The notes under the pieces are model-generated. The model saw only the letters and a program-made list of their open reading frames with translations. It did not search any database and was not told where the DNA came from. Position numbers and translations under genes: made by a program. From Lentibacillus amyloliquefaciens (GTDB lineage Bacteria; Bacillota; Bacilli; Bacillales; Amphibacillaceae), in assembly GCF_001307805.1 (NCBI RefSeq), contig NZ_CP013862.1, positions 3,348,001 through 3,412,000 on the forward strand: DNA of 64,000 nt, read 5' to 3'. This document shows, piece by piece, positions 31,826 to 59,530 of this stretch (positions within the stretch are counted from its first letter, which is position 1; each line of letters opens with the position of its first letter).

Positions 31826-32611
31826 TTAACCAAAATACAAACGAACCCCCATAAGAATTAATAAAATGGAAAGCATTTGGTTGATAACTTTACCAGAGAT
31901 TTTCTTGGATAGACTTACACCTAAGTAAGCACCTGCTATAATACCCAACCCTCCCCATAACACTGTCAGCCAATCCACATGATCATAGAGGATTTGAAAT
32001 AAGACCCCCGTTGACGTATAAAGACATAATGAAAAAATCGATGTGGCTGTTGCGATATGTGTCGGAAAACGAAATATATAAATTAAAATGGGTACAAGCA
32101 GCCATCCTCCGCCAATTCCTAAGTAGCTTGAAAGTATCCCCAGAAAAACCCCGATTGGCAGAAACCATTTATGACTTAAAATGGAATTGACATCATTCTG
32201 TTCATGTTCAGCAGCAATTTCACTGTTGTTGTCGGATGTGAAATTCTTTATAAACAAAAATATTCCTAACGATACAAGGGCAGTTGCAAAAATCCAAAAG
32301 AAGGCCGCGGATTCGGATGATTGAAATTTTAATAGCAACACACCAATGATGGAACCGGGAATAGCCCCCGTTCCGACTTGTATGCCTGCTTTATAATTTA
32401 TTCTGTTTTGTTTGGCATACCCTGTCACACCTGATAAAGCATTAATCAATACAATGACTAATCCTGATCCTGCAGCCATTGCAGGTTCCATGTTAAAAAA
32501 TAATAAAAGGGCGGGGACAAATATAAAACCGCCGCCCGCTCCAACAACTGTTCCATAAGATCCTGCCAGAATACCTGTTATAAGCAGAGCCACTGATGTC
32601 GTTATAGTCAT
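31826..32611 (-). CDS. TSUP-family membrane transporter (TauE/SafE)
   Basis: 261 residues, eight or so hydrophobic helices. GAGGGFIFVPALLLFFNMEP and GIGGGWLLVPILIYIFRFP are the duplicated GGGxxxxP motifs of the sulfite exporter TauE/SafE family. Probably exports a sulfur-containing or organic anion. GGAGAGAG precedes the ATG. It is followed on the same strand, upstream, by a LysR gene (101 bp apart). Confidence 0.88.
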   Translation of the reverse strand: MTITTSVALLITGILAGSYGTVVGAGGGFIFVPALLLFFNMEPAMAAGSGLVIVLINALSGVTGYAKQNRINYKAGIQVGTGAIPGSIIGVLLLKFQSSESAAFFWIFATALVSLGIFLFIKNFTSDNNSEIAAEHEQNDVNSILSHKWFLPIGVFLGILSSYLGIGGGWLLVPILIYIFRFPTHIATATSIFSLCLYTSTGVLFQILYDHVDWLTVLWGGLGIIAGAYLGVSLSKKISGKVINQMLSILLILMGVRLYFG

Positions 32612-32711: not shown

Positions 32712-33593
32712 CTAATGGCGGATAAAGTTAACAAATGAAGCCACGTTATTTTTGTTGAATTTCTCATTTTTACGAATTAACCACAAATTGCGTTTTAAGT
32801 TTGTGTTGCGTATCGAAACCTCTTTAAGCAATCCTTGTTTAAGTTCCTGAGCCACAGTTAATCGGGAAACAATACTTACGCCAAGTCCTGCCTCAACAGC
32901 ACTTTTAATGGCTTGTGTTGTCCCCAGCACCATGTAATTGTTAATTTTATCCAATACATTATGGTCCTTCAGAGTTTTTTCGATAATTAATCTGGTACCG
33001 GAAGTCGTTTCCCGCCAGAGCATTCTTTCCTGCGTTATTTCTTCAATGGCAATTTCCTCGCGGTTATTCCAGGGGTGGTCGGGTGGATGAATTAAAACTA
33101 GTTCGTCATCTGCAAAACTTTCTGCTAATAGGTTATCATTCTGAACAACACCCTCAACTAATGCAAGGTCCAATACATCATTTGCTAATTCATCTAATAT
33201 TTTGGGGGTGTTATTAATAATTAATGATAATTGAAGTCCGGGATGTTTCTTTTTAAATTTTCCCATTAGGCTTGGCAGCAAGTATTCTCCAATCGTGTAA
33301 CTAGCTCCTACTGTAAGTCTAGTATTGGCATCGTCCAGTTTTTCTTGAATAGATTCCTGCGATCGGTTGTATTCATTAACAATGGATCTTGCGTAAGGAT
33401 AAAGAATTTCCCCGTTTGCAGTAAGTGACAATCTGCCATCTTTTCGCTCAAATAACAGCGTGCCGTATGTGTTTTCCAAATGCTGAATTTGCTTCGTAAC
33501 AGCCGGCTGTGAGACAAACGATAAATTTGCTGCTTGGCTGACACTGCCCATATCCACTACTAAGCAAAACATTTTAAAGGTATCTATGTTCAA
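32712..33593 (-). CDS. LysR-family regulator (CysL/CbbR-like)
   Basis: 293 residues. The helix-turn-helix (MFCLVVDMGSVSQAANLSF, SQPAVTKQIQHLE) and the substrate domain fit the CysL/YwfK-like LysR branch. The probable start is TTG at 33593 after AAGGGGGA; an ATG seven codons in would cut the DNA-binding helix. It is divergent from the amidohydrolase gene, with a 331-bp control region in between, and adjacent to the TSUP exporter, so it may control either. Confidence 0.85.
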   Translation of the reverse strand: MNIDTFKMFCLVVDMGSVSQAANLSFVSQPAVTKQIQHLENTYGTLLFERKDGRLSLTANGEILYPYARSIVNEYNRSQESIQEKLDDANTRLTVGASYTIGEYLLPSLMGKFKKKHPGLQLSLIINNTPKILDELANDVLDLALVEGVVQNDNLLAESFADDELVLIHPPDHPWNNREEIAIEEITQERMLWRETTSGTRLIIEKTLKDHNVLDKINNYMVLGTTQAIKSAVEAGLGVSIVSRLTVAQELKQGLLKEVSIRNTNLKRNLWLIRKNEKFNKNNVASFVNFIRH

Positions 33594-33924: not shown

Positions 33925-35015
33925 ATGCCGCAAAAATCTGCTAAAAAGGGACAAAACCAACGTCGAATCATTGATACAGATATTCATGAACGGGTGACTT
34001 ATTCGGAGCTTATCCCTTACTTAGATAATCCATGGAAGCGATATATAGAAGATAACCACTGGATGCAGGAAAAACATATGCCGTATACGCAGCCAACTGT
34101 GGCCGGTGTCGACCGGGCAGATGCTGTCACGCCGGACGGGGAGCTGCAGGAACTGATTTAGGGTTTATGCAAGAACAATTGCTTGATGCAGAGGGGCATG
34201 AATACGGTATTTTAACCGGCGCTTTGGACCCATCTCCGTCGTCAATGCACGGCTGGTATGAAATGGCGACTGCTCTGGCAAGTGCGTATAATGATTGGCA
34301 AATCGAAAATTGGCTGGATAAGGATGACCGTTTATATGGTTCCGTGCATATTGCGGCACAGGATCCGGAACAAGCGGTTCGTGAGATTGAACGGGTCGGC
34401 CCGCATCCTAAAATGGTGCAAATATTGCTGCCGATTGATACGCGTTCTTGGGGAGATCCGTATTATCATCCGATTTATGAAGCAGCGGAGCGTCACAATT
34501 TATCAATCGGTATGCATCATAATGAGCCGCCTACCCATTTCGGAGGCTGGCCGCGTTATTTCATCGAGTGGCATACCATGGTGCCGACAGCGCACATGAT
34601 TGAAGTTTCCAATATGGTGTTCAACGGTGTATTTGATAAATTTCCGGGCTTGCATCTTGTCATGATCGAGGGCGGGTTCACACATGTTCCGCATTTGATG
34701 AAGAAGATGGATCAGCAGTATAAAGAGCTTCGTCATGAGATTCCTTGGGTAAAACGAATGCCAAGTGAAATTATGCGGGAACACGTGCGTTTCACCACAC
34801 AACCTGTTGAGGAATTAACCCAGAAGGAATTTATGCAGTATGTGGATCAAATGGGGTCGGAGGATATGATCTGCTTTGCAACGGATTATCCGCATTGGGA
34901 TTATGATTCACCACTTCAGGCACTGCCTGCACTTGACGAGGCGTTGGAGGAAAAAATTTATTCGGAAAATGCGCGGGCATCCTATCCTAAATTGCCGCAA
35001 TTGATTGGAGTGTGA
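33925..35015 (+). pseudogene. Amidohydrolase-2 family metal hydrolase, broken by one missing base
   Basis: TIM-barrel metal enzyme of the ACMSD/amidohydrolase_2 group. RRIIDTDIHERVTYSELIPYL carries a metal-binding D-x-H; GMHHNEPPTHFGGWPRY, HLVMIEGGFTHVPHL and FATDYPHWDYDSP hold further His/Asp ligands. The frame stops at 34161 and resumes in the next frame at 34142-35015. The break is a GGGG run (34138-34141); one extra G gives DGGAAGTDLGFMQE and a 363-residue protein. AAAGGAG precedes the ATG. First gene of an operon with a Rieske protein five bases downstream. Could be hydrolase or decarboxylase. Confidence 0.8.
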
Positions 35016-35019
35016 AACG

Positions 35020-35376
35020 ATGAGGAAAGTTGTATGTGAAAAGGAAGATATTTTGCCCGGCAAGATGAAAAGCGATTCATTGGGAATGATTCCAATTGTT
35101 GTTTGTCGCACAAAAGATGGTGAATTTTACGCATATGCGAATAGATGCCTGCACCAGGGCGCGCCGCTCTCAGAAGGCGTCTTATGTGGTGATACTAAAC
35201 GAACAGATATTCACGGAAACTATGAATATATTAAAGATGGCGAAATCCTCCGTTGTCCGTGGCATGGTTTGGAATATGACATTAAAAATGACGGTTGCAT
35301 GCTGGCTGAACCACAAAAAAAATTACGCAGTTTCGACGTCATGATTGAGGATGACCATGTGGTTGTCTATAAATGA
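35020..35376 (+). CDS. Rieske [2Fe-2S] protein
   Basis: 118 residues. The cluster ligands are CLHQGAPL (Cys, His) and CPWHGLEYD (Cys, His), with an unusually long ~30-residue stretch between them. It is a small ferredoxin-like Rieske protein, not an oxygenase alpha subunit. It begins 5 bp after the amidohydrolase, suggesting the two act together. Electron donor is probably the ferredoxin reductase at 37278. Confidence 0.88.
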   Translation: MRKVVCEKEDILPGKMKSDSLGMIPIVVCRTKDGEFYAYANRCLHQGAPLSEGVLCGDTKRTDIHGNYEYIKDGEILRCPWHGLEYDIKNDGCMLAEPQKKLRSFDVMIEDDHVVVYK

Positions 35377-35411
35377 ATCTGAATCTGCCAGAGGATGCTT
35401 GAGGTGAAAGT

Positions 35412-36875
35412 ATGAAAAAAATGTTTATTAACGGCGAATGGGTTGAAGCCACTTCCGGCGACACACGAGAGATTATAAATCCTTACAATCAAGCGGTCAT
35501 TGCCACGGTCTCGGAAGGCGATAAGCAGGATGCGAAAAACGCGATTGCGGCTGCCCGTGAGGCTTTTGACAATAAGGAATGGGCTGCGATTCCCGCTGCT
35601 GAACGCGGTAAGGTTGTTCATGAAATTGCCCGTTTAATCGAACGTGACCGGGAAGAATTGGCTGAGCTTGAATCACTCGATACCGGTAAAACCGTTGAAG
35701 AAAGCCGCGGAGACATGGACGATATCGCCGGTGTTTTCCGTTATTTTGCTGAAATGGCTGACAAAGACGGTGGCGAAATCATTGAATCGCCTATTCCGAA
35801 TTCAACCAGCAGAGTGGTCCATGAGCCGGTCGGGGTCTGCGGTCAGATTACGCCATGGAATTACCCATTGCTGCAGGCGTCATGGAAATTGGCACCGGCA
35901 CTGGCAGCAGGCAACACACTTGTCATGAAGCCAAGTGAAATTACGCCGCTTACGTCTATAAAAGTTTTTGAATTAATGGAAGAAGCCGGCGTCCCGGCCG
36001 GGGTTGTCAATCTGGTGCTCGGTCCCGGCAATTCCGTTGGTGCGGAACTTTCAGTTAATGATGATGTCGATCTGATTTCATTCACAGGCGGCATTGAAAC
36101 AGGCAAGCGGATTATGCAGGCAGCCAGTTCCAATGTGAAAAATTTGGCGCTTGAACTGGGCGGTAAAAATCCGAATATCGTTTTTGCCGATGCTGATTTC
36201 GAAACAGCTGTCGACCAGGCGATGAACGCGGTGTTTTTCCATGCCGGGCAAATTTGTTCAGCGGGCACCCGTCTGCTTGTGGAAGAAAGCATTCACGATG
36301 ATTTTGTCGAGGCCCTAGTCAATCGTGTGAAAACAATAAAGCTCGGCAGCGGTTTTGATGAATCAACTCAAATGGGACCGCTCATTTCAGGCGACCATTT
36401 AAATAAAGTGATCAATTATGTTGAAAACGGCAAGCAGGAAGGCGCAACGGTTGCTGTCGGCGGCAGGCGTCCGGAAGATCCGGAACTGCAAAATGGCTTT
36501 TTCTACCTGCCGACAGTGTTGACTGACTGTACGACTGACATGGGCGTTGTGCAGGACGAAGGCTTTGGTCCGGTGATTACCGTGGAAAAATTCACGACTG
36601 AAGAAGAAGCGGTTCGTCTTGCCAACGACTCCATTTATGGGCTTTCCGGCGGTGTCTTTACAAATGATATTGCCAAGGCTGAGCGCTGTGTAGCGAAAAT
36701 GCGGATGGGAACCGTCTGGATCAACGACGTAAACCTATACTTCCCGCAGGCACCATGGGGCGGCTATAAGCAATCCGGCATCGGCCGTGAGCTCGGCAAA
36801 ACTGGCCTGGAAGAATATCAGGAAACCAAGCATATTTTCCGAAATCTGAAGCCTGAACCGGTGAATTGGTTTTAA
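35412..36875 (+). CDS. Aldehyde dehydrogenase, betaine aldehyde dehydrogenase (GbsA/BetB)-like
   Basis: NAD(P)-dependent oxidation of an aldehyde to an acid. The 487-residue protein has ITPWNYPLLQASWKLAPAL, the catalytic Glu in LELGGKNPNIVF, the catalytic Cys in FFHAGQICSAGTRL and the C-terminus EPVNWF, close to Bacillus GbsA. It could make glycine betaine from betaine aldehyde, but no choline oxidase or alcohol dehydrogenase (GbsB) is adjacent, and its partners are Rieske proteins, so the real substrate could be another amino-aldehyde. GAGGTGAAAGT precedes the ATG. Confidence 0.85.
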   Translation: MKKMFINGEWVEATSGDTREIINPYNQAVIATVSEGDKQDAKNAIAAAREAFDNKEWAAIPAAERGKVVHEIARLIERDREELAELESLDTGKTVEESRGDMDDIAGVFRYFAEMADKDGGEIIESPIPNSTSRVVHEPVGVCGQITPWNYPLLQASWKLAPALAAGNTLVMKPSEITPLTSIKVFELMEEAGVPAGVVNLVLGPGNSVGAELSVNDDVDLISFTGGIETGKRIMQAASSNVKNLALELGGKNPNIVFADADFETAVDQAMNAVFFHAGQICSAGTRLLVEESIHDDFVEALVNRVKTIKLGSGFDESTQMGPLISGDHLNKVINYVENGKQEGATVAVGGRRPEDPELQNGFFYLPTVLTDCTTDMGVVQDEGFGPVITVEKFTTEEEAVRLANDSIYGLSGGVFTNDIAKAERCVAKMRMGTVWINDVNLYFPQAPWGGYKQSGIGRELGKTGLEEYQETKHIFRNLKPEPVNWF

Positions 36876-36931
36876 GTTTCTTTGGCAAACAAGCGTAAGT
36901 GATATGAAGAATGAACATGAGGGTGATAGTA

Positions 36932-37276
36932 ATGCAACATACAGAAGGATCTGAATACGACTCTTATATTTATGCCTGCTCAAGTTCAGAGCTTGATGAA
37001 GATGATCTCATCGAATGTGAAATAGGGATAGAGACGATTGTTGTCGGCCGCGGGGAAGGAAAGGTTTATGCCGCCCAGGGGATATGCACCCATGCCTATT
37101 CCGAGCTGGTTGACGGTGAATTGGACGGAACATGTCTGACGTGTCCGTTGCATTTCGCTTGTTTCGATATTCGTGACGGTTCCGTGCTGGAAGGCCCGGC
37201 GGAAACCCCGCTGCGAGTCTATAAGGCTATCGAGGCTGACGGAGCGGTATGGATTAACTATGAAGGAGGTGAATAA
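36932..37276 (+). CDS. Rieske-type [2Fe-2S] ferredoxin
   Basis: 114 residues with CTHAYSEL and CPLHFACFD supplying two Cys and two His. Length and spacing are those of the ferredoxin components of Rieske oxygenases (BphF/NirD-like). Start chosen at 36932 because GAGGGTGA lies just before it. Directly upstream of its probable reductase. Confidence 0.87.
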   Translation: MQHTEGSEYDSYIYACSSSELDEDDLIECEIGIETIVVGRGEGKVYAAQGICTHAYSELVDGELDGTCLTCPLHFACFDIRDGSVLEGPAETPLRVYKAIEADGAVWINYEGGE

Positions 37277-37277
37277 G

Positions 37278-38513
37278 GTGTCTGGAGCAGAGACAACAGT
37301 TATTGCCGGAGCGGGAATCGCGGGTGTTCATGCCGCCGAAAGCTTGCGGAAAGAAGGTTATCAAGGCCGGATTGTGCTGCTGGACAGCGACAGTCAGATG
37401 CCTTATGACCGCCCGCCTTTGTCGAAGGAATGGATAACCGGGGAGACGGACGAAGCAAGTATTTTATTACGGGATCCCGCGTTCTATGAGCGTTTGGACG
37501 TAGACTTGCAGCTCGGTGTTGAAGTGACAAACATAGATCCATTTCGTAAGACCATCGATACAAAAGATGGTCATTCCTATGAATGGGAAAAACTGATGCT
37601 TGCGACCGGATCACAATTGCGCACACTATCGATCGGGGGTGATGACCTTCAAGGTATTTTTTACTTAAGAAGGATGGCTGATGCCACAGCTATTAATCAC
37701 CATATGGAAGGTGTGAAAGAGGCCGTTATTATAGGTGCCGGGTTTATTGGAGCCGAACTGGCGGCTTCTCTGAATCAGTTAGGCATTAAAGTGACGATTG
37801 TGGAAAGGTCCTCTTACCCGATGGAGGCGATCGTTGGACGGCAAGCATCAGCGTATTTCCTGGATTTGCATCGACGTAACGGCGTCGATGTCATAACGGA
37901 GGATTCTGTCAGGCAGTTTAATGGTGAGACGAACGTAGAAGAAGCGGTGACAGCCGCGGGTAGGCGGATTCCGTGCCAGGCGGTCATAATAGGCGTCGGC
38001 GTAAGTCCGAATACGGCGGTGTCGCACCCGCAATTACAGACTGACAGAGGCTATGCTGTGAATGAATTCGGCGAAACATCGGTTCCTGACATTTATGCGG
38101 CGGGGGACTGTACGTCATGGCCATACAATGGGGTGCCCATTCATGTGGAACATTGGGATCATGCCGTCAACCATGCCAAAACCGTCGCCAAAAACATGGT
38201 GCATCCGCAATCGGACCCTTATACGTATACACCGTACTTTTGGTCTAATCAATATAGCAACCGGTTTCAGTATTTCGGGCATGCCAAGGAATGGTCCAAA
38301 ACGATTATAAGGGGATCGACCGAATCGCATGCTTTCACGGTTTTCTATCTGGATGATCAGGATGTCGTCAAGGCCGCGTTCATCGCCAACCAGCCGAAAA
38401 ATGCCTTGCCTGTGAGACGAATGATCCAGCAGCAAAACGCCATATCCCCGGAAGCTTTGGCAGATGAAAGTATAGCACTGAAAAAAATTCAGCGTATGCA
38501 GGTAAAGATATAA
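37278..38513 (+). CDS. FAD-dependent ferredoxin reductase (oxygenase reductase type)
   Basis: 411 residues. FAD motif VIAGAGIAGVHAAESLR, MPYDRPPLSKEW, NAD(P)H motif VIIGAGFIGAELAASL and DIYAAGDCTSWP are those of BphA4/CamA-type reductases. It would pass electrons from NAD(P)H to one or both Rieske ferredoxins upstream. GTG start at 37278, eight bases after GGAGG, which overlaps the end of the preceding gene. No terminal oxygenase alpha subunit is in the window. Confidence 0.88.
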   Translation: MSGAETTVIAGAGIAGVHAAESLRKEGYQGRIVLLDSDSQMPYDRPPLSKEWITGETDEASILLRDPAFYERLDVDLQLGVEVTNIDPFRKTIDTKDGHSYEWEKLMLATGSQLRTLSIGGDDLQGIFYLRRMADATAINHHMEGVKEAVIIGAGFIGAELAASLNQLGIKVTIVERSSYPMEAIVGRQASAYFLDLHRRNGVDVITEDSVRQFNGETNVEEAVTAAGRRIPCQAVIIGVGVSPNTAVSHPQLQTDRGYAVNEFGETSVPDIYAAGDCTSWPYNGVPIHVEHWDHAVNHAKTVAKNMVHPQSDPYTYTPYFWSNQYSNRFQYFGHAKEWSKTIIRGSTESHAFTVFYLDDQDVVKAAFIANQPKNALPVRRMIQQQNAISPEALADESIALKKIQRMQVKI

Positions 38514-38629
38514 TAGAAGAGTTTTGCATTTCTGTCGGCTGATAGGTATCTTTCGAAAAAAAGAAAACAATTTTTCTAAGATTAAATAATAATTTTCAAA
38601 CTCCAACATACAAAGGATGATGTCTTTTA

Positions 38630-39679
38630 ATGTTAAAATTAATCAAAATGCTTCGACCGGTGTTGTTGTACATATCTGTTTTCGGTGTTTTATTATTAGC
38701 AGCCTGTGATTCAACAACAGAGGCTACCAGTGAAAATGATGACAATAGTGATAATGAAGCGACAAAAGAAAAAATTGTATTTTCTGATCTGGGCTGGAAC
38801 AGTATTCGCTTCCATAATCAAGTCGCAGCCACAGTATTGGAAGAAGGCTATGGTTACAAAACGGAAGTGACCACCGCATCGATGTCTATTGGCTTACAGG
38901 GACTGCAAAATGGTGATATTGATGTGACGATGGAAATATGGGGAGATAAAATGGGCGACGCTTATGATGAGGCGCTTAATGATGGTAAAATTGAACAAGT
39001 AGGCATTAATTTTGGTGATACCAAACGTGGTTATTTTGTCCCTACTTATGTGATTGAGGGCGATAAGGAACGTGGTATTGAGCCCGTGGCACCTGATTTG
39101 AAATCCGTCAAAGATTTACCGCAGTACAAGGATGTGTTCAAAGAATCTTCCAGGAAGAGTAAAGGGCAAATTGTAGGTGCGCCATCTATGTGGGGAGCTG
39201 CTGAAGCATTTGAGCAAAAAATGGAGACTTATAATCTGTCCGAAACTTACGAATATGTGGATCCCGGTTCCGGCACCGGTTTGAATGTCTCGCTGACAAA
39301 AGCTTATGAAGCGGGTGAGCCTTGGATCGGTTACGCCTATTCACCAAGCTGGGTGTTAGGAAAATACGATATGACGATGCTTGAAGAACCGGCTTATGAT
39401 GAAGAGACTTGGAATGAAAATTATGGTACAGGATTCCCGGACCAGGATGTTCCGATCGCCATTAATGCGAAGCTGACGGAAACGGCGCCGGATGTTGTCA
39501 AATTTCTAAAAAACTATCAAACAAGCAATGATCTGACCAATGAGGCGCTTGTTTATATGAATGATAATGATGCCGAACCAAGGGAAGCTGCCGAATGGTG
39601 GATGAACGAACATCCTGATATTTGGACAGAATGGGTTCCTGATGATGTGGCGGAAAAAGTTAAAAAAGCAATTCAATAG
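38630..39679 (+). CDS. Glycine betaine/quaternary amine ABC transporter substrate-binding lipoprotein (OpuAC type)
   Basis: 349 residues. Lipoprotein signal with lipobox LLAAC (Cys ~26), then an OpuAC/ProX-type domain (IVFSDLGWNSIRFHNQVAA; DVTMEIWGDKMGDAYDEAL; GTGLNVSLTKAYEAGEPWIGY). The family binds betaine, choline, carnitine or other trimethylamines in an aromatic cage. No permease or ATPase gene lies beside it, so it must share a transporter coded elsewhere. Its place behind the Rieske/ALDH genes suggests the pathway's substrate is a quaternary amine (inference). Terminator at 39688-39722. Confidence 0.88.
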   Translation: MLKLIKMLRPVLLYISVFGVLLLAACDSTTEATSENDDNSDNEATKEKIVFSDLGWNSIRFHNQVAATVLEEGYGYKTEVTTASMSIGLQGLQNGDIDVTMEIWGDKMGDAYDEALNDGKIEQVGINFGDTKRGYFVPTYVIEGDKERGIEPVAPDLKSVKDLPQYKDVFKESSRKSKGQIVGAPSMWGAAEAFEQKMETYNLSETYEYVDPGSGTGLNVSLTKAYEAGEPWIGYAYSPSWVLGKYDMTMLEEPAYDEETWNENYGTGFPDQDVPIAINAKLTETAPDVVKFLKNYQTSNDLTNEALVYMNDNDAEPREAAEWWMNEHPDIWTEWVPDDVAEKVKKAIQ

Positions 39680-39687
39680 GATTTTTA

Positions 39688-39722
39688 AGGTTGGCTGTTC
39701 TTTAGAATAGCCAACCTTTTTA
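39688..39722 (+). terminator. Intrinsic terminator after the binding protein
   Basis: AAGGTTGGCTGTTC pairs with GAATAGCCAACCTT (loop TTTA) followed by TTT. Confidence 0.8.
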
Positions 39723-40028: not shown

Positions 40029-40211
40029 CCCTCTTTTGACACCATGGATATTGCAGGTTGCAGTAAGCTTTTCTTCATTACATATTCTTTAACGATTTAA
40101 TCAACACTTTCCAAAAAATTAGTGATAATGTAAACTTAGACAAAACTGGCGTTCACTATATATTTGCATACCGAGAGAGGCGGTTTTGCAGATCATCAGG
40201 GGGGATTACAT

Positions 40212-41462
40212 ATGGTAAAAGCAGTTAATACAGCAATGATCGCAGGTGGAGGAATCGGCGGACTTGTCACAGCACTCAAGCTTCACGAAAATGGTGTGAA
40301 AGCCCGTGTTTTTGAAAGTGTGGAAACGATTCGGGAACTGGGCGTCGGTATTAATCTTCTTCCCCATGCGGTTCGGATTTTGACGGAATTAGGTCTGACC
40401 GAGGAGCTGGAGAAAACAGGTTTGCCGACATTAGAGCTCAGTTATTATAACAAATTCGGCCAGCAAATTTGGCAGGAACCAAGAGGGCGTCATGCCGGTT
40501 ATCGCTGGCCGCAATATTCAATCCATCGCGGACGACTGCAGATGCTTTTGTTACAAGCCGTAAAGGAACGATTGGATGAGGATGCGGTCAAAACCGGTCA
40601 TCATCTGCATTCCTTTGACCAAACGGATGATGGTGTCAAAGCGCATTTTATAAATAAAAAAACAGGCGAATCGCTTGGGACTTATCAGGCGGATATCATG
40701 ATTGCCGCCGATGGTATTCACTCCGTTGTACGCAAAAGTTTTTATCCAAATGAAGGGGACCCTGTCTTCAGCGGACGTATCTTGTGGCGCGGGCTTACTG
40801 AAGCGCCTGCTTTTCTGACCGGCAAATCCATGATTATGGCCGGCTATCAGGACCAGAAATTCGTTGCTTATCCGGTAGATCCGGAATATACAGGTGGACG
40901 TTCACTTGTTAACTGGATTGCGGAGCGTACAATCGAAGGGGATGTGCCGTCACGTGCTGATTGGAACCAAAAGATCGATAAGCAAAAATTTGCGCCTTAC
41001 TTTTCAGAATGGGATTTCGGCTGGCTGAATGTCCCGCGTCTTATAGAAGATACGGATGCTGTCTATGAATTCCCCATGGTCGACCGGGATCCGGTTGATC
41101 GGTGGACGTTTGGAAACGTGACACTTCTCGGGGACGCGGCACACCCGATGTATCCGATTGGGTCCAATGGTGCTTCACAGGCCATATTAGACGCAGATGC
41201 TCTGGGGCGCGCACTCATGAAACACGTAAGCGGCAAGACAGCTTTAAAGGGCTATGAAGCAGAGCGGCTGGAGCCGACTGCCAATATTGTCAAAAGCAAC
41301 CGAAAGAACGGACCTGAACACGTTATGCAGATTGTGGAAGAACGCGCCCCGGACGGTTTTAAATCGTTATATGACATTATCTCCAGGGCAGAACTTGAAG
41401 ACATCACCGGCGGATATAAGAAGATAGCCGGTTTTGACAGGGAAGAACTGAACTTAAAATAA
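40212..41462 (+). CDS. Flavin-dependent monooxygenase (PhzS/salicylate hydroxylase-like)
   Basis: 416 residues, class A FAD monooxygenase: N-terminal FAD motif MIAGGGIGGLVTALKLHENG, the IAADGIHSVVR (DG) motif and the second FAD motif TLLGDAAHPMYPIGSNGASQAI. Likely hydroxylates an aromatic or heterocyclic substrate using NAD(P)H and O2. GGGGG precedes the ATG at 40212. It is followed 80 bp later by the FGGY kinase. Substrate not identifiable. Confidence 0.83.
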   Translation: MVKAVNTAMIAGGGIGGLVTALKLHENGVKARVFESVETIRELGVGINLLPHAVRILTELGLTEELEKTGLPTLELSYYNKFGQQIWQEPRGRHAGYRWPQYSIHRGRLQMLLLQAVKERLDEDAVKTGHHLHSFDQTDDGVKAHFINKKTGESLGTYQADIMIAADGIHSVVRKSFYPNEGDPVFSGRILWRGLTEAPAFLTGKSMIMAGYQDQKFVAYPVDPEYTGGRSLVNWIAERTIEGDVPSRADWNQKIDKQKFAPYFSEWDFGWLNVPRLIEDTDAVYEFPMVDRDPVDRWTFGNVTLLGDAAHPMYPIGSNGASQAILDADALGRALMKHVSGKTALKGYEAERLEPTANIVKSNRKNGPEHVMQIVEERAPDGFKSLYDIISRAELEDITGGYKKIAGFDREELNLK

Positions 41463-44571: not shown

Positions 44572-44736
44572 CTTACTTATAACTATCTACATTATAAAAA
44601 TTTAGGCAAGGGGGTTTTTATTCAAGAACATTTCCGGCGCATTTAAGGTGAATGTTAACTTATGCAAAATCTCAAAAGGGCGAAACGAGAGATGATGAAG
44701 TTTTACTTTATCCCTAAACATGAGAGGAGACTAAGA

Positions 44737-46887
44737 ATGGTTCGAGTTGGAGTGGATGTTGGCGGTACGTTTACTGATCTGATATTAGTTGATGAATCAG
44801 CAAATCAAATTAATGTACACAAAGTTCCAAGCACAACGCACGACCAATCTGTTGGTGTTATTAAAGGAGTAAAAGAGCTATGTGCCATAAGCGATGTAGC
44901 TGTCGAGGATATTGATGACATTTTGCATGGCACTACAGTGGCAACCAATATCACCATTGAAGGAAATGGTGCAAAGGTCGGGATGCTGACAACACGAAAT
45001 TACAGGGATATTCTTCATATTGCCCGGCATAAAAAGAGCGAAAACTTCTCTATACAACAAAGTCTTCCATGGCAGGACAATCCACTCGTGAAACGACGGC
45101 ACCGTCTTCCAATAACGGAAAAACTTCAAGCACCCGATGGACGTATCCGCTTCCCGATGGAGGAGCAGGAAGTACGGGATAACGTTAAAAAATTAAAAGC
45201 AGAGAATGTCGATGTTATTATTGTTGGCTTTCTTTTTTCTTTTCTTAATGATGTCCATGAGAAAAGAGCAAAAGAAATTGTTAATGAGATCTGGCCGGAG
45301 GTAACATGTTTTACATCGAGTGAAGTGGCCCCCCGGATACGCGAGTATGAACGCTTCAGTACGACAGCCATGAACGCTTTTGTTGCGCCTAAAGTGAATC
45401 AGTATATTGATAACCTGGTTTCATCACTTGAAGAAGCTAACGTACAGGGGAAACTGCAGATCATGCAGTCTTCCGGCGGGATGGCATCTTCCGAAAAAGC
45501 TACCATGACCCCGATGAATCTATTGAAATCAGGACCTGCAGGAGGCGTTCTGGCAGCTTCATGGTGGGGAGAATTGGACGGGATAGACGATGTTATCAGT
45601 GTCGATATTGGAGGCACATCAGCTGACATTTCAATCATCCCGGAAAAAACGCCGAGGGTCGTCAATCCAAGAGATGCTGAAGTTAATAGTTATCCTGTGA
45701 TTACTCCGATGCTGGAGGTGGATACGATAGGTGCTGGAGGCGGTTCGATCGCTTATGTCGATGCCGGCGGAGCATTTCGGGTTGGACCCAAGAGTGCCGG
45801 CTCAACTCCGGGACCTGCCTGTTACGGCCAAGGCGGCGAGGACCCTTGTGTAACCGATGCAAATGTTGCCTTAGGAAGGTTGGATCCGGAACAGTTTTTA
45901 GGCGGGGAGATTCCGCTTCATCCGGAAAAAAGCACCGAAGCTATTCAAAAATTAGCTGACGAATTAAGCATGACGGTTGAGGAAGCAGCATTTGGCATTT
46001 TGAAAATTATCAATAACAATATGGCGCTGTCCATCCGGGAAAACTCAGTCCGCAAAGGGATTGACCCGAGGAACTTTGCATTATTGGCTGCAGGCGGGGC
46101 GGGACCGCTTCATTCCATAGATTTGGCAGAAACGATTGGTTCTAAGACCGTCATGGTCCCGAACTATCCGGGGATTACAGCTTCAGCCGGTTTATTGATC
46201 AGTGACCTGAAATATCATTTTAATGCTTCCTGTATTGAGAAGTTAGAAACGATTTCTGAGGACCTTGTCTTTAAACTGGATAAACAGTTGAAGGAATTGG
46301 AAGGACAAGCGGCAGGCCAGCTAATGCAGGATGGGGTCAGTGAAGGTGATATTGAGTATGAACGGATTGCTGAATGCCGCTATATGGGACAAGGCTTTGA
46401 GTTACGAGTGCCTATTCCTGAGGGGACGTTGACAGAACAAAGTGTCAAAGAGATTATTTCAGGTTTCCATCTGATGCACCAGCAGGAATACGGGCACCAT
46501 TTTCCGGAAAATGATGTGGAACTCATTTCGCTGGATATTGTTGCGACCGGGAAAACACCATCATTCAAGCTGCCTCAATTAGAAAAAATGGAAAGAAGTA
46601 ATCCGACAGAAGCGTTTATGTATGAGCGGCAAACCTATTTTGAGGTAGATGGCGAGATTAAAAGTCTGGCGACACCACGCTACCAGCGGGAAAAATTATC
46701 GGCAAACGATCGCATTACAGGACCGGCTTCCATCATTCAGCGTGATTCAACAACTATTGTCCCGCCAAACTGGGAAGTGGTGGTGTCAGCACATGGCACG
46801 CTGCATGCGACACAAAACGAAGAAAAGGCCGATAAATCTCACAATACGGAAAAACAATTTACTGAGGCGGTGATGAGTGATGAGTAA
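44737..46887 (+). CDS. hyuA: ATP-dependent hydantoinase / N-methylhydantoinase subunit A
   Basis: 716 residues, HyuA/5-oxoprolinase family with an actin-like ATPase fold: GVDVGGTFTDLILVD (N-terminal phosphate loop), LHGTTVATNI, SGPAGGVLAASWW, SVDIGGTSADISII and AAGGAGPLHS. Together with HyuB it opens hydantoin rings at the cost of ATP. Immediate neighbours HyuB, N-carbamoylsarcosine amidase and sarcosine oxidase make N-methylhydantoin (from creatinine) the likely substrate. GAGGAGA precedes the ATG at 44737. Overlaps hyuB by 8 bp. Confidence 0.9.
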   Translation: MVRVGVDVGGTFTDLILVDESANQINVHKVPSTTHDQSVGVIKGVKELCAISDVAVEDIDDILHGTTVATNITIEGNGAKVGMLTTRNYRDILHIARHKKSENFSIQQSLPWQDNPLVKRRHRLPITEKLQAPDGRIRFPMEEQEVRDNVKKLKAENVDVIIVGFLFSFLNDVHEKRAKEIVNEIWPEVTCFTSSEVAPRIREYERFSTTAMNAFVAPKVNQYIDNLVSSLEEANVQGKLQIMQSSGGMASSEKATMTPMNLLKSGPAGGVLAASWWGELDGIDDVISVDIGGTSADISIIPEKTPRVVNPRDAEVNSYPVITPMLEVDTIGAGGGSIAYVDAGGAFRVGPKSAGSTPGPACYGQGGEDPCVTDANVALGRLDPEQFLGGEIPLHPEKSTEAIQKLADELSMTVEEAAFGILKIINNNMALSIRENSVRKGIDPRNFALLAAGGAGPLHSIDLAETIGSKTVMVPNYPGITASAGLLISDLKYHFNASCIEKLETISEDLVFKLDKQLKELEGQAAGQLMQDGVSEGDIEYERIAECRYMGQGFELRVPIPEGTLTEQSVKEIISGFHLMHQQEYGHHFPENDVELISLDIVATGKTPSFKLPQLEKMERSNPTEAFMYERQTYFEVDGEIKSLATPRYQREKLSANDRITGPASIIQRDSTTIVPPNWEVVVSAHGTLHATQNEEKADKSHNTEKQFTEAVMSDE

Positions 46888-48649
46888 GAAAATTGATCCC
46901 GTGACGATGCAAGTTATCGGCGGAGCACTGGATACCATTGCCAAGGAGATGTCACACGTGATACAGCGGATGGCCTATTCCTCATTGATTCGGGAATCTG
47001 AGGATCTCGGTGCCGGTGTGTTCACCACATTTGGTGAAACGCTCGCTGAATCCGATTCAACGCCTATGCAACTGGGGTGTCTGCCGGGTTATATTCAAGG
47101 GTTTCAAGAGGTGCTCGGAGACGACCAGCATCCTGACGATATCATTTGGAACAATGACCCGTATGCCGGTGCCTCACACTCACCTGATATCTCTCTTAGT
47201 CAGCCGATTTTCTATGAAGGGGAATTAATCGGATATGCCGGCACAACGGCGCACCATCTGGACATCGGCGGTGCACAGCCAGGCTTGATTGTGGATGCTC
47301 CTGATGTCTATGCTGAGGGATTAGTATTAAATGGTGTGAAGTTATATGATAAAGGAAAACCGAATGAAACATTGTTCGAAATCGTCAGGCAGAAAGTACG
47401 CACATCATCCCAGGTGATTGGTGATTTGGAAGCGCAAGTAGCCGCCTGCCGACTAGGGGCAAGACGGTACATTGAGCTTATCGATAAGTATGGAAAAGAT
47501 ACGGTGCTTGCGGCCGGGGAAGAATTGATGAATTACTCGGAACACATGATGCAGAGAGAAATTGCCAAGATTCCTGATGGTGAATACGAGGCAGAATCCT
47601 GGCTTGATGATGATGGCATCAACTTGAATGAAAAATTGAAGGTTCATGTGAATGTCATTAAAAAAGGAAGTGAACTGGAGATAGATCTTTCCAAATCGGC
47701 TGATCAGGTCGCGTCAGCTTTTAATGCCGCTTATTCAGGCGCGCTATGTGTGGCTGTATATAGTGTGGTGCGTTCCATCTTTCTTGACACCTATACACAT
47801 GAAGAATTTGTTCCGGCCAATCATGGCGTATTTCGTCCGGTCACTGTAACAGCAAGGAAGGGGAGCATCTTTAATCCAATCCGCCCTGCTGCTACCTTTA
47901 GCCGGGCAAATCAAGTGAACACTGCTGCTGATTTAATCATCAAGGCGTTGACGCCCGTCATCCCTGATAAAACGTGTGCAGGCAGTGCGGCGAATATCCA
48001 GTTTGCATCGTATTCCGGTCTGGATCAGGACCACAATTACTGGGTATACATTGAAGTCAATGAAGGTTCGTATGGCGGCCGTCCGGAGAAGGATGGCATG
48101 GACGCAATGGACTTCAGTTCATGGAATACACGAAATAATCCGATTGAAGACCTTGATATGCACACCCCAATGATTTGCGAGCAGTATGAACTGAGAGAAG
48201 ATACCGGTGGGGCAGGTAAAACCCGAGGAGGCCTTGGAATTATTCGCCGGAACCGTTTCCTGACTGATGGCTTGATGTCCATGGAAGGGGATAAACATAC
48301 CGTCAAACCATGGGGATACAATGGCGGTCTGCCGGGAACAGAAGCCGCATTAATTAAAAATGCGGATACAAAACCGGAAGAGCTCCCGTCAAAATTAAAC
48401 GGCGAACGTTTTAACGCAGGAGAGTCGGTGAAAATTATGGTGCCGTCATCCGGTGGCTATGGTGATCCATTGGAACGTCAAGCAAGTCAAGTTTATGAAG
48501 ATATATTGGATGAAATCATCTCCGCAGAAACAGCGCTGAATGATTATGGGGTAGTCATTGAAGATGGGAACTTAAATATTGAGCGGACAGAAGAAAAACG
48601 ACAAGAAATTCGCCGGCAAAGAGGCAAGTTGCCGTTGTTCACCCAATGA
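46880..48649 (+). CDS. hyuB: ATP-dependent hydantoinase / N-methylhydantoinase subunit B
   Basis: 589 residues of the HyuB family. Conserved blocks: VIGGALDTIAKEMSHVIQR, NDPYAGASHSPDISL, TTAHHLDIGGAQPG, SAFNAAYSG, and the C-terminal GGAGKTRGGLGIIRR and PSSGGYGDPLERQ. The ATG overlaps the hyuA stop, so expression is coupled as expected for a hetero-oligomer. Product would be an N-carbamoyl amino acid, here N-carbamoylsarcosine. Confidence 0.92.
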   Translation: MSKKIDPVTMQVIGGALDTIAKEMSHVIQRMAYSSLIRESEDLGAGVFTTFGETLAESDSTPMQLGCLPGYIQGFQEVLGDDQHPDDIIWNNDPYAGASHSPDISLSQPIFYEGELIGYAGTTAHHLDIGGAQPGLIVDAPDVYAEGLVLNGVKLYDKGKPNETLFEIVRQKVRTSSQVIGDLEAQVAACRLGARRYIELIDKYGKDTVLAAGEELMNYSEHMMQREIAKIPDGEYEAESWLDDDGINLNEKLKVHVNVIKKGSELEIDLSKSADQVASAFNAAYSGALCVAVYSVVRSIFLDTYTHEEFVPANHGVFRPVTVTARKGSIFNPIRPAATFSRANQVNTAADLIIKALTPVIPDKTCAGSAANIQFASYSGLDQDHNYWVYIEVNEGSYGGRPEKDGMDAMDFSSWNTRNNPIEDLDMHTPMICEQYELREDTGGAGKTRGGLGIIRRNRFLTDGLMSMEGDKHTVKPWGYNGGLPGTEAALIKNADTKPEELPSKLNGERFNAGESVKIMVPSSGGYGDPLERQASQVYEDILDEIISAETALNDYGVVIEDGNLNIERTEEKRQEIRRQRGKLPLFTQ

Positions 48650-48717
48650 TGAAGGCTTTAACGATATGTGAACGTGCATCACAACTATAAAATCAAATTT
48701 TTGAAAGGGTGGAAGAG

Positions 48718-49425
48718 ATGTCAGAAGAAATCTTTGATCTGGAGTTATTACAAAAAATGTTTAAAAGAGCAAAAGAAATTCATACGGAGCGAGGGTTTCA
48801 GAAGCGAGTCGGTTACGGGAAAAAACCAGGCATCATCACGGTAGATTTGGCCAATGCATGGACCAAACCGGGGCATGCTTTCTCCTGTGAAAACATGGAA
48901 GAGGTCATCCCGAATGTACGTCGTGTGCTCGATGCAGCGCGGGAAAAGAATGTACCGATTTTCCACAGTACAACCGGGTATAATCCGAATGGCTATCAGG
49001 ATATTGGGCGATGGGCAGATAAAATTCCATTGGACGAATTAAAGCTTGGGGAAGATTGGTTAGACATTGATGAAAGGCTGAATCCTCAGAAAGAAGAAGT
49101 AGTATTCGTCAAAAAGACGGCGAGTTGCTTTAACGGGACGCCACTGCAGTACTGGCTTACAACCCACGGTGTCGATACACTTATTGTAGTCGGTGCTACA
49201 GCATGTGCTTGTGTCCGCCACACATGCATGGACTCAACTGAACTTGGATTCCGCACCATAGTCCCTGAAGGCACGATTGCTGACCGCGTTCCCGGCGCAG
49301 TGGAATGGAACCTGTTTGATATTGACGCCAAATTTGGTGATGTGGATCCGCTCGATACCGTGATTAATTACCTGAAAGGCATCGACACCATTCAGAAACG
49401 GGACGTGACAGCAAATTCTGTGTAA
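48718..49425 (+). CDS. N-carbamoylsarcosine amidase (isochorismatase superfamily)
   Basis: Hydrolyses N-carbamoylsarcosine to sarcosine, CO2 and ammonia. 235 residues of the cysteine-hydrolase superfamily. The triad is readable as Asp43 (GIITVDLANAW), Lys133 (VFVKKTASCF) and Cys165 (ATACACVRHTC). CENMEEVIPNVRRVL and WNLFDIDAKFGDVDPLDT are features I associate with N-carbamoylsarcosine amidase rather than nicotinamidase (recalled, not searched). AAAGGGTGG lies before the ATG. Terminator at 49443-49480. Confidence 0.85.
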   Translation: MSEEIFDLELLQKMFKRAKEIHTERGFQKRVGYGKKPGIITVDLANAWTKPGHAFSCENMEEVIPNVRRVLDAAREKNVPIFHSTTGYNPNGYQDIGRWADKIPLDELKLGEDWLDIDERLNPQKEEVVFVKKTASCFNGTPLQYWLTTHGVDTLIVVGATACACVRHTCMDSTELGFRTIVPEGTIADRVPGAVEWNLFDIDAKFGDVDPLDTVINYLKGIDTIQKRDVTANSV

Positions 49426-49442
49426 GAAGAAGCAGCGAACGT

Positions 49443-49480
49443 GATAAAGGGTAATCCTGTTTCAGGATTACCCTTATCTT
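49443..49480 (+). terminator. Terminator of the hyuAB-amidase operon
   Basis: GATAAAGGGTAATCCTG pairs with CAGGATTACCCTTATC (loop TTT, one mismatch) followed by TTTTT. Confidence 0.85.
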
Positions 49481-49553
49481 TTTGGATTGTTAATTGGATT
49501 TGGATCTTACGTGTGGATTAAGAAATAAGCATCTTGTGCCCGGAGTATGTTGA

Positions 49554-50687
49554 TCACGTTGCATACTCAAGAATTAATTGTTTATAAAAATCAATGGAAC
49601 GCAGGTAAGCATCCACATTGACGTATTCATTTGGCTGATGTGCTAATTTTTCGTTTCCGGGGCCATAAATCAGTGTCGGGATGGCGCTTTCGGGATTTAA
49701 AACCGCGCCATCGGTATAATAGGAAACCCCATAGACCGAATCGGTATCTTGTCCTTTAATTCGGAGCGCCTCTGTTATAATCGGGCTTGATTGATCGGTC
49801 AGAATCGATGGCCGGTTCAATAATTCATTCATTTCAAACGCCGGGGCACCCTCTTCGGAAAACAAATCCGTTAATTTTTGCTTCAATTCAGCAAACAACT
49901 GCTCGTGGGACTGGGGCGCCACGGTTCTGATATCAATGTTCAGCGTACAGCGGTCAGGGATCACGTTTGTTTGAACGCCGCCTTCCATTTTATTGGCCGA
50001 AACGCTGCTTTCACCAAGGGGAGGCTTGGAAATCTTCCAATCTAATTTTAACGCTTCAACAATTAGAATCACCCGGCCCATCCATTCGACCGCATTAATT
50101 CCTTGGTCCGGCATGGCCCCATGCGCTGTTTGGCCGATGGTGATCACTTCAACCCATAAAGCACCTTTATGGCCTGCTGCGACTTTTTCATTTGTCGGCT
50201 CACCAATCACCAAGGCTTCGACATTAGACATGTCATCTTCTTGTAAGTACTGCCGCGCACCGCAGCTATCCACTTCTTCACCGGCAGTTGCCAAGAAAAC
50301 AATCTCCTTTGACAACTCTCTCTTTTCCTGAAAAAGTGATTCAACCGCAAGAAACATCGCTGCAAGACCGCTTTTCATATCTGAGGCGCCGCGTCCGTAC
50401 AGATTTTCTCCCACCAGCTCGCCGGAAAACGGTGCATATTCCCACGGCTGCTCACCGACTAAAACCGTGTCCATATGACCACAGAAAATTACCTTTTCCT
50501 TTGCTTCATTATTGAAGGACATTTCAAAATTGCTTCGGTTTGATTCAATGTTGGTCATTTTATACGGGATACCTGTTTCGTCACATCTTTCGGCAAGTTT
50601 CTTAGTGACGTTGTTTTCGCTGCCAGGGGGATTGGTGCTGTCAATTCGAATCAGCTCTTGCAGAAATTCAACGGCTTCATTTGCCAT
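49554..50687 (-). CDS. M20-family metallopeptidase/deacylase (ArgE/DapE-like)
   Basis: 377 residues. Two-zinc amidase: FCGHMDTV and GRGASDMKSG supply His and Asp ligands, ATAGEEVDSCGA the catalytic Glu pair, GQTAHGAMPD the dimer-domain motif. Family members remove acyl, succinyl or carbamoyl groups from amino acids or dipeptides. It is co-directional with and 88 bp behind sarcosine oxidase, so it may hydrolyse another N-substituted amino acid in the same pathway (inference). AGGAGG precedes the ATG. Confidence 0.85.
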   Translation of the reverse strand: MANEAVEFLQELIRIDSTNPPGSENNVTKKLAERCDETGIPYKMTNIESNRSNFEMSFNNEAKEKVIFCGHMDTVLVGEQPWEYAPFSGELVGENLYGRGASDMKSGLAAMFLAVESLFQEKRELSKEIVFLATAGEEVDSCGARQYLQEDDMSNVEALVIGEPTNEKVAAGHKGALWVEVITIGQTAHGAMPDQGINAVEWMGRVILIVEALKLDWKISKPPLGESSVSANKMEGGVQTNVIPDRCTLNIDIRTVAPQSHEQLFAELKQKLTDLFSEEGAPAFEMNELLNRPSILTDQSSPIITEALRIKGQDTDSVYGVSYYTDGAVLNPESAIPTLIYGPGNEKLAHQPNEYVNVDAYLRSIDFYKQLILEYAT

Positions 50688-50775
50688 TTGGTTAACCTCC
50701 TATTTGAAAAATTAGACAGGAAAAGGTGACGTTGACCTTCCCCTGTCCGTTTGAATTCCGGTGCGTTATTTAGTT

Positions 50776-56328: not shown

Positions 56329-57480
56329 ATGGTAAATCAGCCACATGGCGGGAGATTAATCAGCCGTGAGTTAACGGGAGAGGAACGCGAACAGGCGATC
56401 AAGAATGCTGAAAAACTTCAGGCGCTGACGGTCAACTCCTGGGTTGTTTCGGATATTGAATTGATTGGCATTGGCGGATTCAGCCCGCTGACGGGGTTTA
56501 TGGGACAGAAAGACTATGAGAGTGTTGTCGATAATACACGTCTTGCGGATGGCACCATCTGGAGCATCCCGATGACACTGCCGGTGACTGAAGATGAGGC
56601 AGAGCCATTCAATATTGGTGAACAGATCGCGCTAAAAGGCGAAGATGGCGTGATTTATGGCACGATTAATTTGGAAGAGAAGTATACATATGACGAGAAA
56701 AAGGAAGCGCAAAATGTTTACGGTACAACGGACGATGCGCATCCCGGTGTCATGAAAGTTTATGAGAAAGGCAATGTCTATCTTGGCGGGGCGATTACGC
56801 TCTTGAACCGTCCGGACCACAGCCAGTTTGAAGCGTATTACATGGATCCGGCTGAGACACGTCAGATGTTTGAAGATGCCGGCTGGAAAACGATTGTTGG
56901 TTTCCAGACACGCAATCCGGTCCACCGAGCGCATGAGCATATCCAGAAAACGGCTTTGGAAGCTGTTGATGGCTTGCTTTTGAATCCGCTTGTCGGGGAA
57001 ACGAAATCCGATGATATTCCAGCGGATGTCCGGATGGAAAGCTATGAAACGATTCTTAAAAACTATTATGTGAAAGATCGCGTGCGCCTTGTGATTTATC
57101 CGGCAGCCATGCGCTATGCCGGTCCGCGTGAGGCGATTTTGCATGCGATTGTGCGGAAGAACTATGGCTGCACGCACTTCATCGTCGGCCGTGACCATGC
57201 GGGTGTCGGTGACTATTATGGAACCTATGATGCCCAGCAGCTGGTTGCCCAGTATGAAGAAGAGCTCGGCATTCAGATTTTCAAATTTGAGCATGCGTTT
57301 TACTGCACGGTTTGCGAGAATATGGCATCAGCGAAAACATGCCCGCATGATAAAGAGAATCATGTGCATCTGAGTGGTACGAAGGTGCGCGAACTGCTTC
57401 GTAACGGGGAGCGTCCGCCGAAGGAATTTTCGCGTCCGGAAGTTGCTGATGTTTTGATTAAGGGTATGAAAGAAAACTAA
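56329..57480 (+). CDS. sat: Sulfate adenylyltransferase (ATP sulfurylase)
   Basis: Activates sulfate to adenosine 5'-phosphosulfate. 383 residues of the monomer-type Sat: [15 protein letters not shown] (nucleotide-binding QxRN and HxxH), [17 protein letters not shown] and [24 protein letters not shown]. First gene of sat - permease - cysC - cysQ. GGAGG precedes the ATG; TATACT at about 56284-56289 is a possible -10. The 206-bp gap before it has a GTGATACAT direct repeat but no other feature. Confidence 0.96.
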
Positions 57481-57491
57481 GCGTTGAAAGG

Positions 57492-57638: not shown

Positions 57639-57712
57639 CGCACTTAAAAGGTTCCAGTAGCCTTGCGGTGCGGCGTTTTTTGCACCCGGATTATAAAGGG
57701 GATAGATATCCC

Positions 57713-59491: not shown

Positions 59492-59493
59492 AT

Positions 59494-59509: not shown

Positions 59510-59530
59510 TAAATATAGGAGGGATTGTTG

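Follow-up and report, generated by a model that had tools for sequence, protein, structure and literature searches.

The genome of Lentibacillus amyloliquefaciens (a single contig of 3.86 Mb, NZ_CP013862.1) contains, within the 64,000-nucleotide stretch analyzed here (the window, C1:3348001-3412000), a cluster of six genes encoding a protein annotated as an amidohydrolase, two small Rieske proteins (Rieske A and Rieske B), a ferredoxin reductase, a predicted betaine-aldehyde dehydrogenase (BADH), and a substrate-binding lipoprotein of the OpuAC family. Judged by sequence comparison, the amidohydrolase is a member of the amidohydrolase-related dinuclear oxygenases (AROs), to which AibH2 and SfbO belong, and it is most likely the metal-dependent oxygenase of the electron chain encoded in the cluster. 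We propose that the ARO unit probably converts a trimethylammonium compound to betaine aldehyde, which the adjoining BADH would oxidize to glycine betaine, an osmoprotectant. Taurine betaine (N,N,N-trimethyltaurine) is our tentative choice for the preferred substrate. An earlier note on this DNA had listed the same types of protein, which profile matches confirmed, and had read, in our judgment rightly, the Rieske proteins and the reductase as an electron chain and a quaternary amine or osmolyte as the theme of the cluster. Its view that the oxygenase was missing did not hold, because the amidohydrolase itself belongs, by sequence, to a described group of dinuclear oxygenases that work with a small Rieske protein.

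In the proposed pathway, the trimethylammonium compound would be imported via OpuAC- or BCCT-type transporters, and electrons would pass from NAD(P)H via the FAD-dependent reductase and the Rieske carriers to the ARO, with Rieske A as its direct partner. The ARO would then hydroxylate the compound to yield betaine aldehyde. With taurine betaine, hydroxylation at the sulfonate-bearing carbon would release sulfite along with betaine aldehyde, and the sulfite would be exported by a neighboring TauE/SafE, YeiH, ChrA, or SulP protein. That a dedicated sulfonate-betaine pathway of this kind arose on at least two ARO branches, in halophilic Bacillaceae and in Proteobacteria, with different BADHs and reductases, is an idea that we regard as somewhat doubtful. 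If the proposal is true, a non-heme (possibly Mn/Fe) oxygenase gains a role in osmolyte metabolism, a route is predicted for taurine betaine that links organosulfonate cycling to salt adaptation, and the label "amidohydrolase" is to be corrected in many genomes.

The amidohydrolase and the ARO class

One scan of GTDB genome contigs yielded 454 stretches encoding relatives, of which the best 80 loci were kept. Fifty-nine of these (L007 to L065) share 69 to 95% identity with the ARO piece of the window and are referred to as the halophile clade, the next relatives having at most 48% identity; most of them come from Bacillaceae whose habitats, as judged by name, are salty or alkaline. In the PDB, the ARO piece of the window matched 8sm9 (5.8e-91), 8sm6 (SfbO, 5.5e-62), and AibH2 (5.3e-46), and its best match to a decarboxylase was 7.4e-17. 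For the intact L007 homologue the corresponding values were 6.3e-107 for 8sm9, 5e-87 for 8sm8, 2.6e-74 for 8sm7, 3.3e-61 for 8sm6 (SfbO), and 6e-54 for AibH2 (6m1w_B).

The metal site of AROs comprises two bridging carboxylates, one terminal carboxylate, and three histidines, and the class was discovered via the adjoining small Rieske gene (PMC10811679; PMC10401708); it has also been described in PMC7782822. The PF04909 fold of the class was found well above the profile cut-off (Table 1), and the alignment to the AibH2 and SfbO chains revealed all six predicted ligands, three carboxylates and three histidines. The predicted ligands are D17/D19 (both candidates for one position), H21, H198, E249, D321, and H324 in L007 numbering, and each was identical in 59/59 halophile-clade sequences. 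Equally invariant was D326, which aligns with D342 of AibH2, the second-sphere aspartate of that enzyme (PMC10401708). The protein would carry a dinuclear Fe/Fe or Mn/Fe center and catalyze an O2-dependent hydroxylation. The tight pairing of the first Rieske protein with the amidohydrolase, pointed out in the earlier note, extended to all 80 loci, each of which has a Rieske A gene beside the ARO gene.

The window gene itself is split. A first piece (33925-34161) ends in a stop codon, and the second (34167-35015) continues in another frame; the N-terminal Asp and His ligands precede the break, which sits in a short run of G near 34145, and the remaining ligands follow it in the other frame. The relatives L007 to L011 carry unbroken ARO frames. 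At least four other window genes (hutI-, eda-, dhaK-, and MFS-like, according to our reading) also switch frame after a stop, the sites of frame change in the window being 8249, 16785, 29124, 34150, and 55838. Because several genes switch frame in the same way, assembly indels are a likely cause; the alternative that this pattern suggests is the presence of many young pseudogenes.

Among the closest known systems is the 2-aminoisobutyrate hydroxylase AibH1H2-AibG-AibF of Rhodococcus wratislaviensis, which like the window system combines a PF04909 oxygenase having the same ligand set with a small Rieske ferredoxin and a flavin reductase, in one catabolic cluster that, similar to the window, includes a LysR gene, a permease, and dehydrogenases. 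The two systems differ in that AibH1H2 has two oxygenase subunits whereas the window encodes one and no tandem H1/H2 pair, in that AibF is a 2Fe-2S/FMN reductase and the window reductase an HcaD-like FAD enzyme, and in that the substrate of AibH1H2 is an amino acid rather than the trimethylammonium compound predicted here. For the AROs described by Liu et al. 2024 (8SM6 to 8SM9), of which SfbO is one, the ARO gene adjoins a small Rieske gene as in the window, and 8SM9 is the solved structure closest to the window-type ARO, as determined with the L007 homologue. That work inferred no native substrates for these AROs and, in the sections consulted, mentions no link to BADH. Tandem ARO pairs resembling AibH1H2 were seen in L071 to L077, L175, and L176, most of them with a Rieske gene, and formed branches of their own in actinobacteria, Bacillota, and Proteobacteria in a quick tree of 74 sequences. 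A Mycobacterium locus (L066:1072-8000) combines three genes resembling AROs with two for Rieske proteins and one for an aldehyde dehydrogenase that shares 38% identity with the window BADH. Two ARO-Rieske copies on different contigs were present in L. halodurans (L009/L047), A. albus (L023/L063), and N. halophilus (L039/L057).

Both Rieske proteins of the window contain the motif C-x-H...C-x2-H, and of 55 clustered relatives 54 have it as well. Rieske B and the HcaD-type reductase occurred together in five of the 80 loci, and since all five are from Lentibacillus, this pair seems to have taken the place of the usual reductase locally; an FNR-type reductase (named by our reading), unlike the HcaD-like enzyme of the window, is present in 38/59 halophile-clade loci.

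As stated in the earlier note, the cluster encodes no Rieske oxygenase alpha subunit, and an electron chain without such an oxygenase is explained if the amidohydrolase itself is the oxygenase. A genome-wide PF00355 search gave six matches, one of which is a Rieske alpha subunit located 1.7 Mb from the cluster; two other long Rieske proteins (518 and 540 amino acids) look by eye like FAD-oxidoreductase fusions and not like alpha subunits. The alpha subunit belongs to an aromatic-type (benA-like) alpha/beta pair (C1:1652939-1654282). The presence of this pair at C1:1.65 Mb would accommodate a different explanation, in which the Rieske proteins and the reductase of the window serve the distant oxygenase, while the amidohydrolase acts as a hydrolase or as a decarboxylase. 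We consider this explanation extremely improbable, because the alpha/beta cluster has an FNR-type reductase gene of its own, because the matches of the amidohydrolase to AROs are far stronger than those to decarboxylases, and because the ARO-Rieske A pair is kept throughout the 80 loci. The alpha/beta pair was therefore rejected as the terminal oxygenase and assigned to its own aromatic-type cluster. The flavin monooxygenase (40164-41462), which the same note had put forward, at 40212, as the oxygenase, was likewise rejected, since it had no match in any of the 80 ARO loci and lies past a terminator-like hairpin. The region of the alpha/beta pair (L098, C1:1643000-1660000) also contains one gene resembling those of ring-cleavage dioxygenases and another for a decarboxylase-like amidohydrolase, and its FNR-type reductase is 52% identical to those adjoining AROs.

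BADH and the predicted product

The window BADH, which lies above the TIGR01804 cut-off, is predicted to act on betaine aldehyde, and in 41 of the 59 halophile-clade loci the cluster includes a BADH sharing 65% identity or more. A second ARO branch with this linkage was found in Proteobacteria. In the tree mentioned above, which comprised 26 of the 59 halophile-clade sequences and 48 others and was built by a quick method without bootstrap, with several long branches, the halophile rows formed one group (26/26, SH-aLRT 99) and the proteobacterial rows another, separate one (8/8, SH-aLRT 96). L086 and seven plasmid records make up the set of eight proteobacterial clusters; outside this set stand H55 and H94 (unannotated), H38 (which repeats S. 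meliloti), and L170, L171, L175, L176, and L182 (other ARO branches). The gene order ARO-Rieske-betB was observed in S. meliloti pSymA and in Pseudohalocynthiibacter, whose BADHs are of the BetB type (742.7 and 749.7 bits with NF009725, cut-off 593), compared to 518 bits for the window BADH. The Paracoccus cluster had a short aldehyde dehydrogenase fragment and nothing longer. A LysR gene was present in 8/8 proteobacterial clusters and a "hybrid-cluster" reductase, GbcB-like where scored, in 7/8. As a BADH stands beside the ARO on two separate branches, and is of a different type on each, the ARO product is quite probably betaine aldehyde.

The genome contains a second BADH gene (L097:7464-8933), which shares 90% DNA identity with the window gene over 1414 bases and adjoins a gene for a GbsR-like regulator that is 45.5% identical to the one beside gbsAB of Priestia megaterium. 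The pair is a mosaic, with 53 to 68% identity over the first 240 columns and 77 to 100% further on, a pattern that points to gene conversion within one genome, the two genes being interchangeable.

Genome neighborhoods were reported to give few substrate clues for hundreds of AROs (PMC10811679; PMC10401708). Here, a BADH and transporters of the betaine and sulfite types recur on two distant ARO branches, so that a handful of compounds are left as candidate substrates.

Candidate substrates

If the ARO hydroxylated choline to betaine aldehyde, it would represent a third solution to this step, homologous neither to BetA/GbsB nor to the Rieske enzyme of plants. The adjoining BADH would suit such a choline monooxygenase, and so would a ChoX above the cut-off in the Pseudomonas ARO cluster and a BetI near the S. 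meliloti cluster. Choline genes were surveyed in 50 ARO genomes, six of the 56 loci first listed being left out. A strong BetA-type match was obtained in 33 genomes, GbsB in 17, both in four, and neither in four, so that 46/50 have at least one of them; three BetA-type proteins, including one from the genome of the window, were tested with TIGR01810 and all passed. The ARO was accordingly rejected as the sole replacement for choline dehydrogenase: although GbsB is missing in 33 of the 50 genomes, the BetA-type match is strong in 33/50. Sole replacement fits at most L013, L019, and L026, each of which has a single BADH above the cut-off, assigned by its coordinates to the ARO cluster, and lacks both GbsB and any strong match of the BetA type (L026 has just a weak GMC hit); these three genomes speak for betaine aldehyde as the product and are also a point in favor of choline. 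L064 also lacks GbsB and BetA, but has no adjacent BADH. In a sample of 120 genomes of the order, an ARO was found in eight (at least 70% identity) and GbsB in six (at least 66%) plus one partial match (59%), with an overlap of one genome, which is too few to tell.

The transporters beside the ARO also bear on choline. The exchange G153D renders BetP a choline-specific transporter (PMC6400524). All 16 BCCTs beside a halophile-clade ARO (16/59 loci; BCCT named by our reading) and both proteobacterial ones have Gly at this position, which was matched by motif and not by structure. The BCCT sequence cluster has 17 members, 16 with the Gly motif, and the exception, L026_1479, lies far from the ARO. 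OpuAC-type binding proteins were found by BLAST in 13/59 halophile-clade loci, and a choline- or betaine-type transporter gene (BCCT, choX, ProX ABC, or OpuAC-like substrate-binding protein) in 5/8 proteobacterial clusters; among four substrate-binding proteins compared, the ARO-linked one of S. meliloti was closest to the window lipoprotein (27.8%, 7e-45). Because of the zwitterion-type Gly in the ARO-linked BCCTs and the BetA-type and/or GbsB proteins in 46 of the 50 genomes, choline is not an obvious substrate. As it would also leave the sulfite and oxyanion transporters described below without a role, we consider a choline monooxygenase unlikely. In GbsAB/BetAB choline oxidation, the BADH partner is of the same family as that of the window; GbsB and BetA, however, are dehydrogenases, not oxygenases, and co-occur with the ARO in most genomes tested. 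The plant choline monooxygenase resembles our proposal in that an O2-dependent, ferredoxin-fed route leads to betaine aldehyde and on to a BADH, but it is a Rieske oxygenase, to which the window ARO is not homologous.

A sulfonated substrate is suggested by four families of oxyanion transporters near the ARO: TauE/SafE (PF01925), YeiH (PF03601), ChrA (PF02417), and SulP (PF00916). Counted over open reading frames of at least 100 amino acids in the 59 loci, with representatives checked by profile and the rest by BLAST, such genes made up 20/283 at 0 to 2 kb from the ARO, 6/197 at 2 to 4 kb, 3/191 at 4 to 6 kb, and 1/320 at 6 to 10 kb. At least one lay within 6 kb in 19/59 loci, L018 being included on a weak ChrA match (27%); an L038 ChrA fragment fell short of the length rule and a PSE match in L047, at 8.8 kb, lay outside the range. 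TauE/SafE relatives were within 6 kb of the ARO in 6/59 loci. The window itself has a TauE/SafE gene nearby and no YeiH-family (PF03601) gene beside the ARO. When the transporter label was mapped onto a quickly built ARO tree (50 loci), with L038 scored as positive and L018 not, it required at least 14 changes, and its linkage to the ARO is thus not one inherited event. A PSE/YeiH gene was present in 3/8 proteobacterial clusters, in one of them directly after betB; two such genes (PF03601) scored 125.1 and 119.8 on TIGR00698, under the cut-off of 232.6. In Salmonella, YeiE senses sulfite, and sulfite resistance requires YeiH (PMC12880088).

Taurine betaine, the substrate that we tentatively prefer, is reported to be a major betaine, at high concentration, in Madracis corals (PMC5557254), and N,N,N-trimethyltaurine has been termed an osmolyte (PMC5762795). 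Among the listed Creative Commons-licensed papers naming the compound, bacterial breakdown of taurine betaine did not appear as a topic of titles and opening lines of abstracts. Among AROs, SfbO has N-substituted taurines, PIPES for example, as substrates (PMC10811679), and its sulfate-binding arginines are absent from the window-type AROs. The logic proposed here, hydroxylation next to a sulfonate to yield sulfite and an aldehyde, is also that of the taurine dioxygenase TauD. This enzyme hydroxylates taurine at the sulfonate-bearing carbon, releasing sulfite, but is Fe/2-oxoglutarate dependent and unrelated to the ARO.

Two further readings start from other trimethylammonium compounds. An oxygenase acting as a glycine betaine N-demethylase, analogous to GbcAB, would hydroxylate a methyl group to give dimethylglycine and formaldehyde, in keeping with the betaine-type BCCT and OpuAC proteins near the ARO, with the GbcB-like reductase of a proteobacterial cluster (293.5 bits, below the cut-off of 500), and with the occurrence, in one of the Mesorhizobium clusters, of a gene from the trimethylamine methyltransferase family. 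The BADH would then have no role, although two BADH subfamilies have been recruited, and no other gene family widely kept beside the halophile ARO suits demethylation; we regard this reading as improbable. Oxidative cleavage of choline-O-sulfate to betaine aldehyde and sulfate would account for the BADH as well as for the oxyanion transporters, and the substrate is zwitterionic. The known route for this compound is the hydrolase BetC, however, sulfate should need no dedicated export, and the evidence on YeiH concerns sulfite rather than sulfate, all of which makes a choline-O-sulfate oxygenase very improbable.

Several observations weigh against the pathway via taurine betaine and betaine aldehyde. 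An adjacent BADH is lacking in 18/59 halophile-clade loci and an oxyanion transporter within 6 kb in 40/59, and a second S. meliloti strain has no annotated YeiH in the matching region. ChrA genes are common (49/50 genomes, two to eight domain matches each), which nevertheless leaves few of them expected beside any one given gene. The two sulfate-binding Arg positions of SfbO are occupied by His (59/59) and by Ile, Leu, or Met in the halophile clade, so that a sulfonate would need a different binding mode. L007 encodes an additional BCCT, located 5.5 kb from its ARO, in which neither form of the motif is present, and the ChoX of the Pseudomonas cluster favors choline. Since N,N,N-trimethyltaurine destabilized two proteins (PMC5762795), taurine betaine may be a poor compatible solute. 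GbsB occurred at 10/12 loci without an adjacent BADH versus 7/38 with it (Fisher 9e-5, 50 genomes), but on the ARO tree this link amounted to two to three independent contrasts and was not significant, and the anticorrelation was therefore rejected as proof. For BetA (5/12 without an adjacent BADH versus 28/38 with it, p 0.08) there was no clear link.

Gene cluster and neighboring genes

The coordinates of the cluster and its closest neighbors are listed in Table 1. The six genes are arranged head to tail, either overlapping or spaced by 35 to 116 bases, and 33925-39679 is best explained as one transcription unit. The unit would be closed by the terminator-like hairpin, a type of site that in the hairpin scan as a whole was no more numerous than in shuffled sequence. 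The divergent LysR regulator scored 238.8 bits with NF040786 (cut-off 250) and 204.5 bits with NF040889 (YeiE), under the cut-off of 480.

Table 1. Features of the ARO cluster and its surroundings in the window.
Feature	Position	Strand	Evidence
ARO-type monooxygenase (putative), annotated amidohydrolase PF04909	33925..35015	+	PF04909 118.8 bits (second piece, cut-off 26.4)
Rieske A, AibG-like small Rieske ferredoxin	35005..35376	+	PF00355 64.8 bits; C-x-H...C-x2-H motif
Betaine-aldehyde dehydrogenase (BADH, predicted), GbsA type	35412..36875	+	TIGR01804 726.1 bits, cut-off 668.6
Rieske B, dioxygenase-type ferredoxin	36911..37276	+	PF00355 67.3 bits; best NCBIfam AndAb/HcaC, below cut-offs
FAD-dependent ferredoxin reductase, HcaD-like	about 37251..38513, start inferred	+	PF07992 and PF14759; NF042949 277.6 bits, below cut-off 450
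OpuAC-family substrate-binding lipoprotein	38630..39679	+	PF04069 173.7 bits; best PDB 7yle (dimethylsulfoniopropionate [DMSP]-binding protein)
Terminator-like hairpin, end of unit	39687..39718	+	14-pair stem with T tail
LysR regulator, YeiE-like, divergent from ARO	32712..33593	-	PF03466/PF00126
TauE/SafE-family (sulfite exporter family) membrane protein	31826..32611	-	PF01925 171.6 bits

Outside the pair of ARO and Rieske A, the set is variable. An OpuAC protein of the window type was found at similar identity in one of the 80 loci (L008), and L013 has one at 26%. With regard to conservation of the gene set in Bacillaceae, which the earlier note had named as a test, the core pair is kept in all 80 loci but the complete set of six genes is almost confined to Lentibacillus. 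The statement of that note that no described pathway has this set holds within the Creative Commons-licensed literature searched, in which no relevant paper treated amidohydrolase, Rieske protein, monooxygenase, and BADH jointly, but the enzyme class as such had already been described. For the S. meliloti ARO cluster, none of the listed papers naming nearby locus tags, which were estimated from map position, dealt with the substrate as judged by title and opening lines of the abstract.

Further downstream, the region 44662-51942 contains HyuA/HyuB-type genes (beta subunit 281 bits to the caprolactamase model, below the cut-off), an isochorismatase-like gene that no NCBIfam model matched, and a gene of the sarcosine/N-methyltryptophan oxidase type (444.9 bits, cut-off 257). 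By our assignment, these genes might encode a route for creatinine or N-methylhydantoin. The region 56329-60936 carries sulfate assimilation genes, namely those for sulfate adenylyltransferase and adenosine 5′-phosphosulfate (APS) kinase, together with genes that we read as encoding an SLC13-like transporter and a CysQ-like phosphatase.

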